NCBI RefSeq assembly: GCF_041346945.1
Contig: NZ_CP166850.1
Span: forward strand, 9,718,501 to 9,782,500
DNA from: Amycolatopsis sp. cg9
Lineage (GTDB): Bacteria > Actinomycetota > Actinomycetes > Mycobacteriales > Pseudonocardiaceae
Reading direction: 5' to 3'
Length of the DNA stretch: 64,000 bases
This document shows, piece after piece, positions 3 to 13,475 of this stretch; position 1 is the stretch's first letter, and every line of letters begins with the position of its first letter. Position numbers and translations under genes: made by a program. The notes beneath the pieces are model-generated. The model saw nothing but the letters and a program-made list of their open reading frames with translations, had not been told where the DNA came from and made no database searches.

Positions 3-551
3 TTCGTGCTGTTCCTGATCCTGCGGCCGCTGTCGACGCGCGCGCTGACCGCGGGCGCGGCCCCGTTCCGCGTCGCCGTCGGCGGCTGGCTGTCTTCGGC
101 GCTGCTGGGCATCGCGCAGGTCGTCGTGCTGTTCGGCGCGGTGACCTGGCTGGTCGGCATCCACATCGCGCACCCGCTGGAGGCGATCGGGTTCGCCGTG
201 CTGGTTTCGCTGACGTTCACGTCGGTGGTGCACGCGCTCAACGCGTTCTTCGGCGCGGTCGGCAAGTTCCTCGGCCTGGTCCTGCTGGTGCTGCAGCTGG
301 TCAGCGCGGGCGGCACGTTCCCCTGGCAGACGATCCCGGACGCGCTGTACCCGCTGCACGTGGCGCTGCCGATGGGGTACGCGATCGACGGCTTCCGCCA
401 CCTGTTCTACAGCGGCGCTTCCGTGCAGATCCTGGGTGACGTCGGAGTGCTGCTCGGGTACCTGGTGGGCGGGATCCTGGTGTCCACGCTGGCCGCGCGC
501 AAACGTCGCGTTTGGACGGTGTCCGCGCTCAAGCCCGAGCTGAGCCTGTGA
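3..551 (+). CDS. YhgE/Pip-like ABC-2 type membrane protein, C-terminal part
   Basis: This is the C-terminal 182 residues of an integral membrane protein; the gene begins upstream of the window. Four to five hydrophobic segments are visible. The motif MGYAIDGFRHLFYSG before the last membrane span is typical of the YhgE/Pip family, whose members end in an ABC-2-like permease domain and are often annotated as phage-infection or type VII-linked envelope proteins. The stop TGA at 549-551 overlaps the GTG start of the following TetR gene, so the two are probably co-transcribed and the regulator may control this transporter. The family call rests on the C-terminus only. Confidence 0.7.
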   Translation, partial: FVLFLILRPLSTRALTAGAAPFRVAVGGWLSSALLGIAQVVVLFGAVTWLVGIHIAHPLEAIGFAVLVSLTFTSVVHALNAFFGAVGKFLGLVLLVLQLVSAGGTFPWQTIPDALYPLHVALPMGYAIDGFRHLFYSGASVQILGDVGVLLGYLVGGILVSTLAARKRRVWTVSALKPELSL

Positions 552-7019: not shown

Positions 7020-7991
7020 GTGGACCTCGACGTCGCCCAGGTGCGGGCATTCGTGGTGACCGCCGAGCAGCGCCACTTCGGCCGGGCCGCCCAGGCGCTG
7101 TTCCTCACCCAGCAAGCGCTGTCCAAGCGCATCCGCAAGCTCGAGGACGCCCTCGCGACGCCGTTGTTCGTGCGCACCAACCGGTCGGTCGAACTGACCG
7201 CCGAGGGCGAGCGGTTCCTCCCGCACGCGCGCGAACTGGTGCGGGTGGCCGACGCCGCGGTGGCGGCCATGGGCGCCGACGACCGGCCGCTGCGCCTCGA
7301 CCTGCTCGACTACCGCCTCTCCCCGATGTTCCTGCTGCGCCGGCTCGCCGAGCGGGAGCCGGCGCTTCGGGTGGACAAGGTCGCCGGCGGCGGGTTCGCC
7401 AACGCCGTCGAGAAGCTGCTGTCCGGCGAGCTCGACGCCGCGTTCGGCCGGGTGAACGGCTTCGGGCGGCCACTGCCGGACGAGCTGGAGCACCGGGTCG
7501 TCCGGCTCGAGCCGCTGGTCGCCCTGCTCGCCCCGGAACACCCCCTCGCCGTGCAGGACGCCCTCCCGCTGATCGACCTGCGCGCCGACGGGATCTGGCT
7601 GCCCGGCCACGGCGGCCCGGCCGAATGGCTGTCCTACGTGAACGAGCTGTGCACCCGCTTCGGCGTGCCGGTCGACGACTCCGGCGTCAGCTACGACCTG
7701 CGCCACACCCTCGAGCAGACCCGCTACGGCAAGCGACGCGTCACGCTGGCCGGCGCGGACATGGAGCTCGCGCCGGATCTGAACCTGAAGGTGCTGCCGT
7801 TCGAGCCGTCGCCGCTGTTCCCGTGGTCGCTGGTCTGGCGGCGCGGGAAGGCGCACCCGGCGCTGAAGCGGCTGATGGCGCTGGCCGGGCGCACCAGCCG
7901 CGAAGAGGGCTGGTGCGCCTACGACCCGGCGCACGCCTGGGTGCCGGACGACGACGTCAGCCTCGCAGCTTCCGCGCGAACCACTCGCTGA
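7020..7991 (+). CDS. LysR-family transcriptional regulator
   Basis: A 323-residue LysR-type regulator. The N-terminal winged helix-turn-helix spans residues 1-60, with FGRAAQALFLTQQALSKRIR and LEDALATPLFVRTNRSVELT. The rest is a two-lobed effector-binding domain. Start GTG 7020, three bases after the thioesterase stop. Its 3' end overlaps that of the convergent hydrolase gene by 35 bases. LysR regulators often control a neighbouring divergent gene; here the nearest candidates are the thioesterase and the hydrolase, but neither is divergent. Confidence 0.88.
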   Translation: MDLDVAQVRAFVVTAEQRHFGRAAQALFLTQQALSKRIRKLEDALATPLFVRTNRSVELTAEGERFLPHARELVRVADAAVAAMGADDRPLRLDLLDYRLSPMFLLRRLAEREPALRVDKVAGGGFANAVEKLLSGELDAAFGRVNGFGRPLPDELEHRVVRLEPLVALLAPEHPLAVQDALPLIDLRADGIWLPGHGGPAEWLSYVNELCTRFGVPVDDSGVSYDLRHTLEQTRYGKRRVTLAGADMELAPDLNLKVLPFEPSPLFPWSLVWRRGKAHPALKRLMALAGRTSREEGWCAYDPAHAWVPDDDVSLAASARTTR

Positions 7992-8718
7992 AGGCGGCGT
8001 CGACGCGGGCCGCTTCCGGCGTCCCCGGCGGGAACTCGTGCGCCATGCCCTCGACCGTGACCAGCTCGGCCCCCAGCTTCTCGTGCAGGGCCGCGGCCGG
8101 CTCGCGCACGGCGACGTCGTCGGCCGCCCCGGCGACCAGCAGCAGCGGCGCGGTCAGCTCGGCCGCCCGGTCGACGTAGTCGTAGCGCGCGGCGACCGCG
8201 CGGGACCTCGCGGTCCACCCGTAGGTCACCCCGAAGCGCCGCTCGTTGGCGGCGATCATCGGCGCGAGCTGGACGACCGGGCTGGCCACCGCGGCGGCCG
8301 CGATCCCGGCGTCCCCGCGCGCCAGCACCTCCAGCGCCACGAGCGCCCCGGCCGAGCCGCCGAACACCCCGAGCGGCCCGCTCGCGCCCGGCAGCCGGTC
8401 GCGCAGCTCGGCCAGCGCCGCCGGGAACTCGCCCGCCGCCTGCTCGGTCACCGGCTCGAACACGTCGAGCACGGCGTCCTCGTTCGCCCGCCGGAAGACT
8501 TCGTCGTAACCGCCTTCGGGCAGCCGCGCGCCGCTCAGCGGCAGGCCGAGGTACACCCGCCACGCCTGGAGCCCCGCCATCGGCACGGCTTCGGCCATCG
8601 CCTGCTCGCTCGCCGGCGCGTCCATCAGGTGCCAGCCCACCACCAGCGCCGCCGGCGCGCCCGCGTCCGCCGGCGGCACCGCCACGAACGGCACCCCGGC
8701 CGCGATACCCTCGATCAT
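7957..8718 (-). CDS. Alpha/beta hydrolase
   Basis: A 253-residue alpha/beta hydrolase. The nucleophile elbow is FGGSAGALVAL (Ser in G-x-S-x-G), the acid is probably in VAGAADDVA and the base His in VEGMAHEFPPG. The oxyanion region is VGWHLMDAP. It resembles esterase or dienelactone-hydrolase-like enzymes; no signal peptide, so cytoplasmic. Start ATG 8718 is preceded by GAGGGAG. It lies 103 bases downstream of the SARP gene on the same strand and could be a read-through target. Confidence 0.75.
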   Translation of the reverse strand: MIEGIAAGVPFVAVPPADAGAPAALVVGWHLMDAPASEQAMAEAVPMAGLQAWRVYLGLPLSGARLPEGGYDEVFRRANEDAVLDVFEPVTEQAAGEFPAALAELRDRLPGASGPLGVFGGSAGALVALEVLARGDAGIAAAAVASPVVQLAPMIAANERRFGVTYGWTARSRAVAARYDYVDRAAELTAPLLLVAGAADDVAVREPAAALHEKLGAELVTVEGMAHEFPPGTPEAARVDAAFSEWFARKLRG

Positions 8719-8821: not shown

Positions 8822-9613
8822 TCAGCAGGTGTCGCCGACCAGCGTGCCGTCGAGGATCACCTGCTGGATCCCCTGGAGGTGCTCGCCCGGCTCCACCCCC
8901 AGTTCGGCGACGAGGAACCCGCGCGCCCGCCGGTAGGTGTCCAGCGCTTCCGCCCGGCGCCCCGACGCGTAGAGGCCCCGCATCAGCTGGCCCCAGAAGC
9001 GTTCCCGCAACGGGTGTTCGGCGACCGCGTCGTACAACGCGTCGAGCACGTCTTCGTGCGCGCCGAGCAGCAGCCGGACCTCGACGCTGCGTTCCAGGAC
9101 GGCGAGCCGGCGTTCCTCCCACCGGTCCGCTTCGGCGCGAAGGACCTGTCCCACGGCCGGCAGCCCGTCGAGCAGGCTGCCCCGCCAGACCGCGAGGGCG
9201 CGGTCGTAGCACCGCGCCGCCTGCTCGGTCTCCCCGGCGCGTTCGGCCCGGTCGCCGGAAAGCCGCCAGTCCTCGAACCGGGCGACGTCGCATTCGTCGC
9301 GCCGCACCACCAGGCGGTAGCCGTCGGGCTGGGTGACGATGCGCCGGCCGTCACCGGGATCGCCGAGCACCCGCCGCAGCGCCGCGACGTAGGTCCGCAG
9401 GTTCGCCCGCATCGACACCGGTGGTCTGCCCCAGACCGCGCGGGCCAGGTAGTCGATCGTCGCCACCCGGTCCGCCCGCAGCAGCAACGCGGCCAGCACC
9501 GCCCGCTGCCGCGGCCCGCCCACCGCGAGCCGGCGGCCCCTGGCACACACTTCGAGCGGGCCGAGCAACCGGAATTCGATTTCCCCCTCGGCCGCACCAC
9601 GCACGAACGCCAT
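8822..9613 (-). CDS. SARP-family (BTAD) pathway regulator
   Basis: A 263-residue protein with the two domains of a small Streptomyces antibiotic regulatory protein. Residues about 8-95 are an OmpR-type winged helix (EFRLLGPLEVCARG, GGPRQRAVLAALLLRA, LRTYVAALRRVLGD). Residues about 100-255 are a bacterial transcriptional activation domain (LRERFWGQLMRGLYASGRRA, EALDTYRRARGFLVAELGVE). Start ATG 9613 has an excellent GAGGAGGGGAG site upstream, which rules out the longer frame from 9769. It is divergent from the Cys-rich peptide gene, with the shared promoter region between them. SARPs normally activate specialised-metabolite clusters, so it is the probable activator of the peptide cassette. Confidence 0.85.
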   Translation of the reverse strand: MAFVRGAAEGEIEFRLLGPLEVCARGRRLAVGGPRQRAVLAALLLRADRVATIDYLARAVWGRPPVSMRANLRTYVAALRRVLGDPGDGRRIVTQPDGYRLVVRRDECDVARFEDWRLSGDRAERAGETEQAARCYDRALAVWRGSLLDGLPAVGQVLRAEADRWEERRLAVLERSVEVRLLLGAHEDVLDALYDAVAEHPLRERFWGQLMRGLYASGRRAEALDTYRRARGFLVAELGVEPGEHLQGIQQVILDGTLVGDTC

Positions 9614-9696
9614 GCTCCGCTCCCCTCCTCCGGCCCGTCCGGGCCGCCCTCCTGGTGTTTTGCCTCTCCTGCGCCGAAATCCCTTCCGTGCCGCCG

Positions 9697-9727
9697 TGTG
9701 CGGCGGGTGTGCTCGCGCTGTGCGGCG
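9697..9727 (+). promoter_or_regulatory. Candidate SARP binding repeats upstream of the peptide gene
   Basis: The 9-mer TGTGCGGCG occurs at 9697-9705 and again at 9719-9727, exactly 22 bases (two helical turns) apart. A possible -10 (GACGAT, 9734-9739) follows six bases after the second copy. SARP activators are known to bind direct repeats spaced by 11 or 22 bases just upstream of the -10. Assignment to this SARP is inference. Confidence 0.45.
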
Positions 9728-9789
9728 AGCGGCGACGATGGACCAGACCAGCAAACCAGCCCGCTCCACGGATCGAAAGGATCACGCGG

Positions 9790-10038
9790 ATGCTCCAGCT
9801 GAGCCCGAAACTCGACCAAGCAGTCCAAGGCGTGGCCGCGCTCGGTGACCGGATCCTCGGACTCGTCGTGCCGCGGGTGACCGCGAAAGCGGCCTGCCCG
9901 TGTTCGGGGGACTTCCTGCAGTACTGCGGCTGTTACCAATACGGCAGCGGCTACCGGAAGTACTACCGGACCTGCTACTTCAACTGCGACTGCACCCACT
10001 ACTGCGATTCCTGCATCTACTCCGCCGTCAGCTGCTGA
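9790..10038 (+). CDS. Cys-rich secreted peptide precursor (putative new disulfide-rich peptide)
   Basis: An 82-residue precursor. Residues 1-35 form a mostly helical leader ending in VTAKAAC, which contains an A-x-A signal-peptidase-like site (Ala32-Lys33-Ala34). The remaining 47-48 residues hold ten cysteines (36, 38, 46, 48, 62, 66, 68, 72, 75, 82), seven tyrosines and few hydrophobic residues, enough for five disulfides. CxC pairs recur at 36/38, 46/48 and 66/68. Start ATG 9790 follows GAAAGGA with an eight-base spacer. The convergent operon encodes a signal peptidase, ABC exporter, redoxin and MauE-like protein, the set needed to export, cleave and oxidise such a peptide. I recognise no known family. 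Bacteriocin, signal or metal-binding peptide are all possible; the secreted oxidised form is inference. Confidence 0.75.
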   Translation: MLQLSPKLDQAVQGVAALGDRILGLVVPRVTAKAACPCSGDFLQYCGCYQYGSGYRKYYRTCYFNCDCTHYCDSCIYSAVSC

Positions 10039-10463
10039 ACCGGCCGGGTCGTCACGACACCGACGACCCGGCCGACCGGGAAGTAGCCGAGCTCGGCCGA
10101 ATCGATGCTTCCCTTCGCGTCGCCGAGCAGCACGAGCATGCCCGCCGGCACCCGGTCCTCCGGCCGGTCCGCGAGGGCCGGCAGCCCCGCACGGGGGACC
10201 GGGTCGCCGGGGATCGCCGCGACGCGCTTGACGAGGTGGCCGGGGCCCAGTGCCCGCGGCCCGGCCCGGCCCGGGTGTTCGACGACGACCACCCCGCCGC
10301 GGCGGATCTTCCCGGCCCGGCGGCAGAGGACGCGCTGGCCGTCCCGGAACGCGGGCGCCATGCTGAGCCCGGACACGACGGCGACGAACCAGCGCCGCCG
10401 GGCCCACCGGATCAGCACCACCCCGGCCACCGCGGCGACGGCCGCCCAGAGCCAGCCGGTCAC
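10017..10463 (-). CDS. S26-family signal peptidase
   Basis: A 148-residue type I signal peptidase homologue, shorter than housekeeping LepB. One N-terminal membrane anchor (residues 4-18) is followed by Ser34 in SGLSMAPAF (nucleophile) and Lys79 in GHLVKRVAAIPGD (general base), so the catalytic dyad is intact. Box E is degenerate: GDAKGSIDSAELGYFPVG. Start GTG 10463 overlaps the exporter stop as GTGA, showing translational coupling. Its last 22 bases overlap the 3' end of the convergent peptide gene. It probably removes the peptide leader outside the membrane after export. Confidence 0.85.
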   Translation of the reverse strand: MTGWLWAAVAAVAGVVLIRWARRRWFVAVVSGLSMAPAFRDGQRVLCRRAGKIRRGGVVVVEHPGRAGPRALGPGHLVKRVAAIPGDPVPRAGLPALADRPEDRVPAGMLVLLGDAKGSIDSAELGYFPVGRVVGVVTTRPVQQLTAE

Positions 10464-12319
10464 GACCGGCTCGCCAATTCCGCTTCGCCCGCCCCGTACC
10501 CGCGCGACTGGAGCCGGAAGAGCCGGCCGTAGCGGCTCCCGGGCTCGGTCATCAGCTCGGCGTGCGAGCCCTCCTCGGCGACTTCGCCGTCGTCCAGGAC
10601 GGCGATGCGGTCCGCGTCGCGCAGCGCGCTCAGCCGGTGGGCGATGACGACGCTGGTCCGCCCGTCCCGGTACGCCCGCAACCGCGTGTGCAGGTCGTGC
10701 TCGGCCTCCGCGTCCAGCCCCGCACTCGGTTCGTCGAGCACGAGCAGGTCGCAGCGGTCCCGGAGGAAGGCCCTGGCCAGGGCGATCCGCTGCCACTGTC
10801 CCCCGGACAGCAGCACGCCGGCGTCGGCCGCAGTGCGGTCCTCGTCTTCGAAGTAGGTCCGCGTGAGCGGGGTGTCGTAGCCGCGCGGCAACGCGGTCAG
10901 CAGGTCGTGGGCCTGCGCCCGCCGGGCGGCGCGGTGCAGCCGGTCGTCGTCGTCGAGCGCGGCGAGGTCCCCGACGCCGATGTTCTCCCGCGCGGTCAGG
11001 TCGTAGGTCATGTAGTCCTGGAACACCGCCCCGATCCGTTCGCGCAGCTCGTCGACGCGCAGCTCGCGCAGGTCGACCCCGTCCCAGGTGACGCTGCCTG
11101 CCACCGGGTCGTAGAACCGGCAGAGCAGCTTCACCAGCGTGCTCTTGCCCGCGCCGTTCACCCCGACCAGCGCGACCGTCTCGCCGCGGCGGATCGTCAG
11201 GTTCACCCCGCGCAGCACCCACGGCCCGTCCTCGCGGTAGCGGAACCAGACATCGCGCAGCTCGATCCGGTCGCGCAGCTCGCCCACGCGGCGGGGCCGG
11301 GGCGGCGCGGGCAGGTCCGGCTCCGCGCGCACGACCGCCGCGTAGTGGCCGAAGAGCAGCAGCGCCTGGTGGCCCGCCGCGAGGTCGCGGACAACGGCCA
11401 GGACCATGGCCTGCGTCCCGGCCACCGCCGCCGCGAACACGGAGACGTCGCCGATGCTCAGCTCCCCGGACCGGGCGCCGCGGACGGCCCAGACGAGGCC
11501 GAACCCGGCGATCAGGGCCCCCGCCGCGCCGAGCAGGGCCTGTGCGACCAGCTCGCGCCGGTCCGCGCGGCGGTCCTCCCGGTGCACCGCGGCCGTTTCG
11601 CGCCGCATCCGGGCCCCGAAGTGCGCGCCGAGGCCGAGCAGCCGGATCTCCTTGGCGGCGCGGTGGTCGGTGAGCAGCTGCGCGTAGAACAGCTCACGGC
11701 GGCGGCCGTGCCCGGTCGCGGCCAGCATCTCGGCCCGACGGCGGCCGATGGTCAGCTCCACCGCGAGCGCGGGCACCGCCGCGAGCGCGACGACGACCGC
11801 GAACACCGGGCCGACCGTCAGCAAGGTGCCGAGGAAACCCAGCAGGGTCACCGAGGCCTGGGCGATGGCGAGCCCGCGGGCCAGGACGTCACCGGGCGCC
11901 GACCGCCCGAACGACTGGGCCAGCTGCACCCGGTCGTGGAACCGCGGGTCTTCGAGCCGGGCCAGCCCCCGGAGGCGGCCGAGTGCCTCGTAGAGCCGCG
12001 CCTGCGCGAGTTCCGTGACCGCCCGGCCGAGCGCGGCCCGGACGTACCTCGCCGACTGCTGGGCGAGCACCGTGGCCACGCCGGTGACCGCCAGCGCGAT
12101 CGCCGGCAGGACGACCGGGGCGGTGCCGCCCGCCACGAGCGCGTCGAGCACGACCTTCGTCAGCCACGCCGTGAGCACCGGCAGCGCTCCGGCGACCACG
12201 GTCAGCACCACGTCCGCGACCACCGCGCCGGGCGCGGCCCGCGTCGCGAGCGCGAGGGCGTCCCGTGCTGCCTCGGCCGTGCGCCGGTACCGTTCGCGCC
12301 GGCGCGGCCGAGCGCTCAA
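10460..12319 (-). CDS. ABC exporter, fused membrane and ATPase domains
   Basis: A 619-residue half-transporter of the MsbA/lantibiotic-exporter type. The N-terminal ~340 residues hold about six membrane helices, starting with VVADVVLTVVAGALPVLTAW. The ATPase domain has Walker A GVNGAGKST, signature LSGGQWQR, Walker B LLVLDEPSAGLD and H-loop IAHRLS. There is no N-terminal C39 peptidase domain, in keeping with a separate S26 peptidase. Start TTG 12319 overlaps the redoxin stop as TTGA; an upstream in-frame extension lies inside the redoxin gene and is not protein-like. A homodimer would export the Cys-rich peptide. Confidence 0.85.
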   Translation of the reverse strand: MSARPRRRERYRRTAEAARDALALATRAAPGAVVADVVLTVVAGALPVLTAWLTKVVLDALVAGGTAPVVLPAIALAVTGVATVLAQQSARYVRAALGRAVTELAQARLYEALGRLRGLARLEDPRFHDRVQLAQSFGRSAPGDVLARGLAIAQASVTLLGFLGTLLTVGPVFAVVVALAAVPALAVELTIGRRRAEMLAATGHGRRRELFYAQLLTDHRAAKEIRLLGLGAHFGARMRRETAAVHREDRRADRRELVAQALLGAAGALIAGFGLVWAVRGARSGELSIGDVSVFAAAVAGTQAMVLAVVRDLAAGHQALLLFGHYAAVVRAEPDLPAPPRPRRVGELRDRIELRDVWFRYREDGPWVLRGVNLTIRRGETVALVGVNGAGKSTLVKLLCRFYDPVAGSVTWDGVDLRELRVDELRERIGAVFQDYMTYDLTARENIGVGDLAALDDDDRLHRAARRAQAHDLLTALPRGYDTPLTRTYFEDEDRTAADAGVLLSGGQWQRIALARAFLRDRCDLLVLDEPSAGLDAEAEHDLHTRLRAYRDGRTSVVIAHRLSALRDADRIAVLDDGEVAEEGSHAELMTEPGSRYGRLFRLQSRGYGAGEAELASRS

Positions 12320-12879
12320 CCACGGCCTCCGGCCACCGGTGCGGTCAGCTCTTCCAGCACGAAGCCGCGGGAAGCGATCCGGCCGTCGTCGTCCAGGACG
12401 CAGACCGCGGGGAAGCCGCGGACGCCGAACGCCGAGGCGACCGGTCCGTCGGGCGGCTCGATCACGGTGTGCGCGACGGGTTCGAACGACCGCGCCATGG
12501 CCCGGGTGTCCTCGTCGAGGTCCGTGCCGATCACGACCGCGAGCACCGCCGCCCGGCCACCCGGCTCGGCTTCCGCGCGTTCGAGGAACCGCGGCAGCTG
12601 CTCGGTGCAGGCCCCGCAGTGCGGGGTGAAGAACCCGATCAACGCCGAACCGGGGAGCCCCTCGCCCGAGACGGTCACGCCGTCGGTGGTCGACGTCGTG
12701 AACGCGCCCGGCGCCGTCCCGGGCGCGATCATGACCTCCGGTGCCGCACCCCCGCCCGCCGAAGCGGCCTCGATGGCCTTCGCGTGCTCGCGCAGCCGCC
12801 GGACGACGCCGAGCAGCAGCACGAGGTTCACCACACCGAGCACGCCGAGCACGATGTCGGCCGTGATCAAGGAAGACAT
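12316..12879 (-). CDS. Membrane-anchored thioredoxin-like protein (TlpA/MauD type)
   Basis: A 187-residue protein with one N-terminal membrane helix (residues 7-26) and an extracytoplasmic thioredoxin fold. The active site is CGAC at 88-91 in GFFTPHCGACTEQLP, and the cis-Pro loop is RGFPAVCVLDDDG. Such proteins move disulfides in exported substrates. It starts 11 bases after the MauE-like gene and overlaps the exporter gene. Paired with the MauE-like protein it could oxidise or reshuffle the ten-cysteine peptide, as MauD and MauE support folding of the disulfide-rich methylamine dehydrogenase subunit. Confidence 0.85.
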   Translation of the reverse strand: MSSLITADIVLGVLGVVNLVLLLGVVRRLREHAKAIEAASAGGGAAPEVMIAPGTAPGAFTTSTTDGVTVSGEGLPGSALIGFFTPHCGACTEQLPRFLERAEAEPGGRAAVLAVVIGTDLDEDTRAMARSFEPVAHTVIEPPDGPVASAFGVRGFPAVCVLDDDGRIASRGFVLEELTAPVAGGRG

Positions 12880-12890
12880 GTTCCGCCCCT

Positions 12891-13421
12891 TCAGTTCCTG
12901 AGTTCACCGAAGAACAGGTCGAGCAGGTCGTCGAGCCGGATCACCAGGACGGCGACCAGTGAGCCGCCAGCGAGCGCGAGCAGGCCCGCGGCCGGCTCCG
13001 GTGGCACCACCGGTCCCCACACCCCCGGCAGCCCGGCCAGCGCGAGGAGCACGAGGCACGCGCTGCGCACGACGTGCCCGTACCCGATCGGCTGCGAGGA
13101 ACCGCCGAAGCACCCGCACTCGGCCCGGATGCCGCGCCGGATCCGGCTGGTCAGCCCCATCGCGAACACCGAGGCCAGCGCCGCGGCCAGCAGGCACCCC
13201 AGCCACGGCCGGACCGCGAGCGCGGCGGCCGTGGTGCCCTCCGCGAAAGCGATCGCACCGGCCAGCCACACCGTGCGCCGGGCACCGACGAACCCGAACG
13301 GCCGCAAGGACGCCGCGAAAGCGGTGAACGCGGCCGGGCCGCGGACCTTGCTCAGCGCGGACACGGCGAAGACGACCGCCGGGACCCACCGGCACGCGAG
13401 CTGGATCGACGCCGTGACCAT
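12891..13421 (-). CDS. MauE/DoxX-like membrane protein
   Basis: A 176-residue protein with four to five membrane helices and the pattern of MauE-type proteins: ALSKVRGPAAF near the N-terminus and ECGCFGG (Cys102, Cys104) after the third helix. MauE-like proteins pass electrons across the membrane to thioredoxin-like partners. Start ATG 13421, with GAGGA close upstream; a longer frame from 13487 adds an unlikely extension. First gene of the four-gene export and folding operon. The promoter must lie in the short gap to the livF terminator. Confidence 0.75.
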   Translation of the reverse strand: MVTASIQLACRWVPAVVFAVSALSKVRGPAAFTAFAASLRPFGFVGARRTVWLAGAIAFAEGTTAAALAVRPWLGCLLAAALASVFAMGLTSRIRRGIRAECGCFGGSSQPIGYGHVVRSACLVLLALAGLPGVWGPVVPPEPAAGLLALAGGSLVAVLVIRLDDLLDLFFGELRN

Positions 13422-13475
13422 GTCCTCAGCCTGCCCCGCGGCCGCACATGTCCCGCACAGGAACCGCACAAGCAA

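Follow-up and report, generated by a model that had tools for sequence, protein, structure and literature searches.

Among the candidate families of ribosomally synthesized and post-translationally modified peptides (RiPPs) listed by decRiPPter, three from Streptomyces (Streptomyces sp. 2112.3, S. viridosporus T7A and Streptomyces sp. CS081A) combine precursors of at least eight Cys with mauE, and one of them also with mauD; as described there, they are uncharacterised candidates for which a role in precursor modification was proposed, and the disulfide role of MauE in methylamine dehydrogenase maturation is cited (PMC7794033). The nearest characterised actinobacterial products found in our literature search are the actifensins of Actinomyces, which are described as a leader plus a core with six Cys, three disulfides and degenerate core sequences, with ABC genes beside the precursor gene (PMC6989792). 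Here, we analysed a stretch of 64,000 nucleotides from Amycolatopsis sp. cg9 (contig NZ_CP166850.1, positions 9,718,501 to 9,782,500; hereafter the window), in which a small gene for a Cys-rich peptide lies beside genes for a SARP-type regulator, an S26 peptidase, an ABC exporter, a redoxin and a MauE-family protein. The locus is very probably a cassette for a secreted, disulfide-rich ribosomal peptide, and the comparison of related loci supports the original prediction, made from the letters of the window alone, that these genes make one secreted, multiply disulfide-bonded peptide. This reading is backed by the apparent co-inheritance of the precursor with four genes, by one leader shared among many cores, by conserved catalytic residues, by a repeated operator-like sequence and by an even Cys number.

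Results

The precursor co-occurs with a four-gene cassette

A MauE search of 80 Amycolatopsis genomes gave 43 matches in 28 genomes, the window's own genome included, and the other 42 loci were examined. Redoxin and ABC matches adjoined MauE in all 42 and S26 in 41 (the exception being locus L057), and a leader-type Cys-rich frame was recognised in 34 loci by a regular expression, in six more by a looser expression and in one (L065) by eye. A leader profile built from 14 leaders of the window and the genus loci was then applied to 45 loci of other genera in the order (L113-L157), with 15 loci of weaker MauE relatives lacking an ABC or S26 match (L158-L172) serving as controls. At 8 bits, the 87 cassette or near-cassette loci of genus and order yielded 90 matches, 86 with at least four Cys downstream, in 74 loci. 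Reversed-sequence decoys gave 16 matches at 8 bits, none followed by four or more Cys (1 of 41 at 4 bits), and the control loci gave no match at 8 bits and one with four Cys at 6 bits. Complementarily, a scan of GTDB species genomes, from which the best 80 of 99 relatives were taken as loci, placed a precursor in 61 of 63 full cassettes at 4 bits.

Pooling gave 183 loci, reduced to 173 by removing duplicates in MauE DNA, and a precursor was called wherever the leader profile matched at 9 bits with at least four Cys. Precursors were present in 127 of 131 four-gene loci, in 7 of 17 partial loci and in none of 25 MauE-only loci; with the loci that had supplied seeds excluded, the figures were 115 of 119 full cassettes against 0 of 25 (Fisher P = 3.7e-24). 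The MauE-only contrast shows that the predicted precursor is tied to the cassette rather than to MauE in general. Two checks proposed with the original prediction thereby came out in its favour: homologous four-gene operons do not generally lack a Cys-rich frame but carry one with the same leader, and the peptide frame is conserved, with same-leader, partly same-core frames in other species and genera. The four misses were L149, L156, L174 and L252, of which L156 has two related frames by eye and L174 begins at a contig edge. Of 160 precursors, 145 had a cassette gene no more than 300 bp away, and 97 had MauE at such a distance on their own strand.

Full cassettes were found in Amycolatopsis, Streptomyces, Nonomuraea, Microbispora, Micromonospora, Actinomadura, Planomonospora, Kribbella and other genomes, and a draw of 346 genomes across the phylum added eight MauE matches outside the order at 1e-18, counted on the MauE match alone. 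Several neighbouring arrangements were seen on the way. The S26-less cassette of L057 stands beside a leaderless six-Cys frame beginning MKAAC (L057:8560-8733, minus strand), unmatched elsewhere in the genus genomes searched; it is possible that leader and peptidase were lost together. By eye, L153, L155 and L160 appear to form a side branch with MauE and redoxin and no S26 or full-length exporter match, in which frames of six to eight Cys without A-x-A stand upstream of MauE, with an ABC ATPase frame near and a PadR-like regulator frame by L153 and L160. Close to the main cassettes of L217 and L227, a second, weaker MauE adjoins another ABC exporter, with no redoxin match (L217:11001-13267 and L227:14498-16785, both minus strand).

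One leader precedes many Cys-rich cores

The raw sequence of the window confirmed an 82-residue frame with ten Cys (positions 36, 38, 46, 48, 62, 66, 68, 72, 75 and 82), all within the last 47 residues, and an A-x-A site, A32-K33-A34, before the first of them; one relative, P0001, is 91% identical. Across the family, leaders of about 20-34 residues follow the pattern L-x-D-R-L-L-x-x-x-V-P-x-x-x-A-x-A, and a single leader model spans 146 unique precursors. A-x-A lies within 16 residues upstream of the first Cys in 134 of these 146, a count to be read with the fact that the leader model itself carries A-x-A. The cores behind this leader differ widely: 135 unique cores fell into 77 clusters at about 50% identity, with 4 to 12 Cys and very different spacing. 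Together, a conserved leader and a variable core adjoining processing genes give these loci the makeup of a RiPP-type system.

Cys numbers were even in 70 of the 77 core clusters and odd in seven (binomial P = 3.5e-14). For S, T, Y, G, R, A and N, a like comparison across these clusters gave splits from 32:45 to 45:32. We regard the even Cys number as the strongest sign in the sequences that Cys would be used in pairs. All seven odd-Cys cores, with 7, 9 or 11 Cys, came from L126, L139, L141, L150 and L173; in them, one thiol could stay free, chains could be linked to each other, or the product could consist of two peptides. In two precursor subfamilies, the ratio of nonsynonymous to synonymous changes (pN/pS) was 0.43 (14 sequences) and 0.38 (6 sequences), constraint being somewhat weaker on the core than on the leader; because of these values, the precursors fit translated genes under purifying selection. 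Two or more precursors per locus occurred in L061, L062, L066, L147 and L148. The cassette region of L147 and L148 has a ten-Cys precursor and, in addition, two eight-Cys precursors whose cores are of a different type (CDAC...NNCNGQC in L147); a second redoxin is adjacent.

None of 28 precursors scanned was covered by a Pfam or NCBIfam family, and neither the window precursor nor the members of group A8 had a convincing Pfam, NCBIfam or PDB sequence match. Among the matches listed, relatives were named hypothetical or uncharacterized protein in databases, except for two ShKT-domain labels in UniRef. AlphaFold2 modelled the window precursor from 43 sequences with core strands at 41-51, 54-64, 70-72 and 76-81 (block means 85-90), and a six-Cys relative, from 36 sequences, showed the same strand order. 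Foldseek returned no match below E 0.2 with either precursor model. The best VIA-align Z scores were 4.5 and 2.9. Laterosporulin and laterosporulin3 were among the matches of both models and laterosporulin10 among those of the second, weak matches that were tied with cystatins and others.

The proposed maturation machinery is conserved

Gene overlaps and Pfam matches confirmed the coupled MauE-redoxin-ABC-S26 operon: redoxin and ABC genes overlap at 12316-12319 and ABC and S26 genes at 10460-10463, each a 4-bp start/stop overlap. In alignments of chosen representatives of the 43 genus loci, the predicted catalytic residues held throughout, with Ser34 and Lys79 of S26, as originally proposed, invariant in 12 of 12 proteins, the redoxin CxxC in 14 of 14 and the MauE C-x-C-F-G in 16 of 16. 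Redoxin and S26 of the window each have one N-terminal hydrophobic segment and MauE has several, so that catalytic parts can be placed facing outward. The best NCBIfam matches of the 619-residue exporter were MsbA-like and below the family cut-offs. As predicted, C39 was not among the five Pfam families matched by this protein, and the leader ends in A-x-A, not in the G-G that would go with a C39 peptidase-exporter.

Among frames within 7 kb of MauE in the 63 full cassettes of the GTDB scan, the only other clusters found in more than eight loci were SARP-type regulators (34 loci) and precursors (11 and 10). No further widely shared modifying enzyme was found in this range, in which known precursors themselves clustered across at most 11 loci, so that divergent or distant genes could escape.

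Paired operator-like repeats flank the peptide genes

In published SARP operators, repeats follow one another every 11 or 22 bp and the final one lies 8 bp from the -10 element (PMC10936776), and PimR is described as using three heptamers separated by 4-bp spacers (PMC5930380). Three copies of TGTGC at an 11-bp pitch occur exactly twice in the window, at 9697-9723 (plus strand) and 13444-13470 (minus strand), the first upstream of the precursor and the second ahead of MauE; 100 shuffles contained no such match. In the whole 10.6-Mb genome, there are four exact triple repeats, two of them at this locus, and allowing one mismatch gives six, versus one for the reversed pattern. The remaining two exact triples (G000:C1:2106269-2106295 and G000:C1:10100029-10100055) may mark further SARP targets. 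As in the SARP regulons of these two papers, three heptamers with 4-bp spacers stand at an 11-bp pitch, and a -10-like hexamer follows after 8 bp; the predicted targets differ, being in this case a gene for a peptide precursor and the operon for its maturation. GACGAT and CAGGCT would then be the -10 elements. The window thus holds a SARP gene together with heptamer repeats, as a SARP-controlled cluster would, the hexamers being -10-like only, and the paired repeats strengthen the originally proposed link between the SARP and the peptide genes. Some further precursors were also preceded by triple repeats, of differing sequence. L148 has a TTAGC-type repeat upstream of precursor and MauE alike (seen without a shuffle comparison), and the 16 kb of this locus showed no SARP gene.

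Gene layout

Features of the locus are collected in Table 1. Precursor and S26 genes are convergent with a 22-bp overlap at their ends, and the SARP gene is divergent from the precursor gene. A divergent SARP gene had been predicted, and its product has BTAD and Trans_reg_C matches, but the start at 9769 was replaced: the ATG at 9613, just ahead of the SARP-like stretch EIEFRLLGPLEV, appears the better start, because 9769 leaves just 20 bp to the precursor start and 9613 gives a 176-bp divergent region. The window precursor lacks Sec-like hydropathy, with no 19-residue window at membrane-segment level (best 1.16). An alpha/beta hydrolase gene follows the SARP gene in the same orientation (7957-8718, minus strand); it was not counted as a cassette part because it was not conspicuous among the frames common to cassettes.

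Table 1. Genes and putative control elements of the peptide locus (positions in the window)
Feature	Positions	Strand	Remarks
SARP-type regulator, small	8822..9613	-	Pfam BTAD 2.3e-43, Trans_reg_C 1.7e-9 (domain scan run on 8822-9769); start re-assigned from 9769 to 9613
Putative operator, TGTGCGG-N4-TGTGCTC-N4-TGTGCGG, 11-bp pitch	9697..9725	+	-10-like GACGAT at 9734-9739, 8 bp downstream
Precursor gene, 82 residues, ten Cys	9790..10038	+	Leader 1-34 (9790-9891), core 35-82 (9892-10035)
S26 family peptidase, Ser34/Lys79	10017..10463	-	PF10502 3e-15; single N-terminal transmembrane window, 1-19
ABC exporter, transmembrane and ATPase parts	10460..12319	-	ABC_tran 6.4e-31; C39 peptidase not found
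Membrane-anchored redoxin, C88-G-A-C91	12316..12879	-	Redoxin PF08534 8.9e-9; transmembrane window 8-26
MauE-family membrane protein, C102-G-C104-F-G	12891..13421	-	PF07291 5.8e-21
Putative operator, three exact TGTGCGG heptamers, 11-bp pitch, upstream of MauE	13442..13470	-	-10-like CAGGCT at 13433-13428, 8 bp further

Discussion

In the pathway that we propose, the SARP would bind the paired TGTGCGG operators and turn on precursor and operon together. The 34-residue leader, unlike a Sec signal peptide, would guide the precursor to the ABC exporter. Once it is outside, disulfides of the core would be formed or shuffled by the membrane-anchored redoxin, itself re-oxidised by MauE, and S26 would cleave after A32-K33-A34 to leave a 48-residue peptide with up to five disulfides. 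Here we infer SARP binding, the order of steps, the redox direction, the cleavage site and a role as weapon or signal.

Several observations weigh against such a cassette, or against parts of it. The loci are related by descent, so that P values, the Fisher value of 3.7e-24 included, overstate independence; the MauE-only set includes relatives of MauE that are more distant and is hence not a random control, and one of its 25 loci matched at 5 bits. L149 and L252 have the four genes, and no precursor was found in them by the leader profile. L186, L217 and L227 have A-x-A precursors with no S26 gene in the stretch examined, for which reason S26 may be replaceable. The parity count leaves out cores with fewer than four Cys (two three-Cys matches at a limit of three were taken as chance), and 7 of its 77 clusters are odd. 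The AlphaFold2 model of the window precursor is confident in the core only, with a predicted template modelling score of 0.45 and a low-confidence leader helix. Triple repeats exceeded shuffles (at most 4 of 200 shuffles) in 5 of 21 upstream regions, namely the window, L128, L129, L139 and L145, and not in the other 16, and a SARP-domain gene was present in 81 of 131 full cassettes; because of these two counts, the SARP assignment appears sound for the window and extends to part of the class. Finally, an antimicrobial product normally needs an immunity gene, and a shared one was not found within 7 kb in 63 cassettes.

As to the product, we see about an even chance of an antimicrobial, bacteriocin-like role. 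The same pathway might instead deliver a signalling or developmental peptide, an alternative that we hold only tentatively: the missing shared immunity gene and SARP control would suit it, and the carriers are largely actinomycetes of mycelial habit, but diverse cores on a fixed leader are typical of weapons, and the structural likeness to laterosporulins, weak as it is, points away from a signal.

The chemistry itself could also be of another kind. In a lanthipeptide-like or other thioether RiPP, MauE and redoxin would just keep Cys reduced before modification, and TlpA-like redoxins can indeed be reductive. Leader and Cys-rich cores would accord with this, and decRiPPter handles such loci as RiPP candidates (PMC7794033). 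We nevertheless consider a thioether product improbable, since the even-Cys bias is unexpected for Cys-Ser/Thr thioethers and no additional enzyme family was widely shared near the cassettes, although divergent or distant genes could be missed. Equally, the Cys could bind a metal or cofactor in a secreted, metallothionein- or ferredoxin-like protein whose thiols are protected by the redox pair. Even Cys numbers and C-x-C pairs are compatible with metal sites too, but 77 core clusters with such different Cys numbers and spacing, the lack of a convincing database match for the window precursor and A8 members, and an extracellular setting expected to be oxidising make this quite unlikely. That the small frame is a chance open reading frame beside a general redox/export operon is hardly credible: spurious frames abound in high-GC sequence and L149 and L252 have the operon with no precursor found, but 127 of 131 cassettes carry the frame, no decoy at 8 bits had four Cys, pN/pS is near 0.4 and the operator-like repeats are shared.

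Beyond a single secreted disulfide-rich peptide, we lean towards the view that MauE, redoxin, ABC exporter and S26 form a general, core-tolerant factory in which one leader feeds unrelated cores of 4 to 12 Cys into extracytoplasmic oxidation and cleavage, at least here under one SARP with matched operators. Filamentous actinobacteria would thereby possess an arsenal on a par with the defensins of animals and plants. If true, there would be a class of ribosomal peptides served by a dedicated line of oxidative folding, a large family of many different Cys-rich peptides in soil actinobacteria, and MauE would gain a function beyond methylamine metabolism. Leader motif, four genes and even Cys number would make a genome-mining rule, and the cassette would offer a ready-made way to secrete and fold disulfide-rich peptides, whose production in bacteria is difficult.

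Comparison with known systems

The decRiPPter MauE families share with the window a mauE homologue (PF07291 5.8e-21) and a precursor of at least eight Cys, ten in this case; on this likeness in mauE and Cys count, they likely belong to the same class, although the terms 'S26' and 'redoxin' are absent from the main text (PMC7794033). The bare association of MauE with Cys-rich precursors is thus already in print, and the original prediction that no described class has this gene set holds in part: such precursors were listed as candidate RiPP families in 2020 (PMC7794033), and the four-gene cassette was not found described. In the full-text literature searched, we found no description of the S26-ABC-redoxin-MauE unit, the common leader, the spread over many genera, the Cys parity or the operator pair. 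The window's peptide would fall among the ribosomal peptides that depend on a leader, and its line of redox and cleavage enzymes was not found described as one system in that literature.

Actifensins share with the window an actinobacterial leader-plus-core Cys peptide and adjoining ABC genes. As described, however, their operon comprises ABC genes, a subtilisin-like protease, an alpha/beta hydrolase, a LuxR regulator and genes of unknown function, with MauE, redoxin and S26 unnamed, and G-A occupies positions -3 and -2 of the mature peptide in place of A-x-A (PMC6989792). A subtilisin-like protease, several ABC genes and a LuxR regulator are not among the genes of 8822-13421. We know of no MauE cassette for laterosporulins. 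These disulfide-rich bacteriocins (PDB 4ozk, 6lwy and 6lwz; 4ozk leaderless according to its title) appeared among the structural matches of the precursor models, weakly and tied with cystatins.

With MauD/MauE of methylamine dehydrogenase, the cassette shares a MauE-family membrane protein and an adjacent thioredoxin-like partner. In maturation of that enzyme, the thioredoxin-like protein and MauE serve a small Cys-rich polypeptide. No methylamine dehydrogenase structural gene was found among the seven window proteins scanned, and the precursor had no Pfam or convincing PDB sequence match. MauE and redoxin were accompanied by ABC and S26 in 131 of 173 MauE loci and, in contrast to the methylamine dehydrogenase system, the predicted substrate here is a small leader peptide provided with an ABC exporter and an S26 peptidase.

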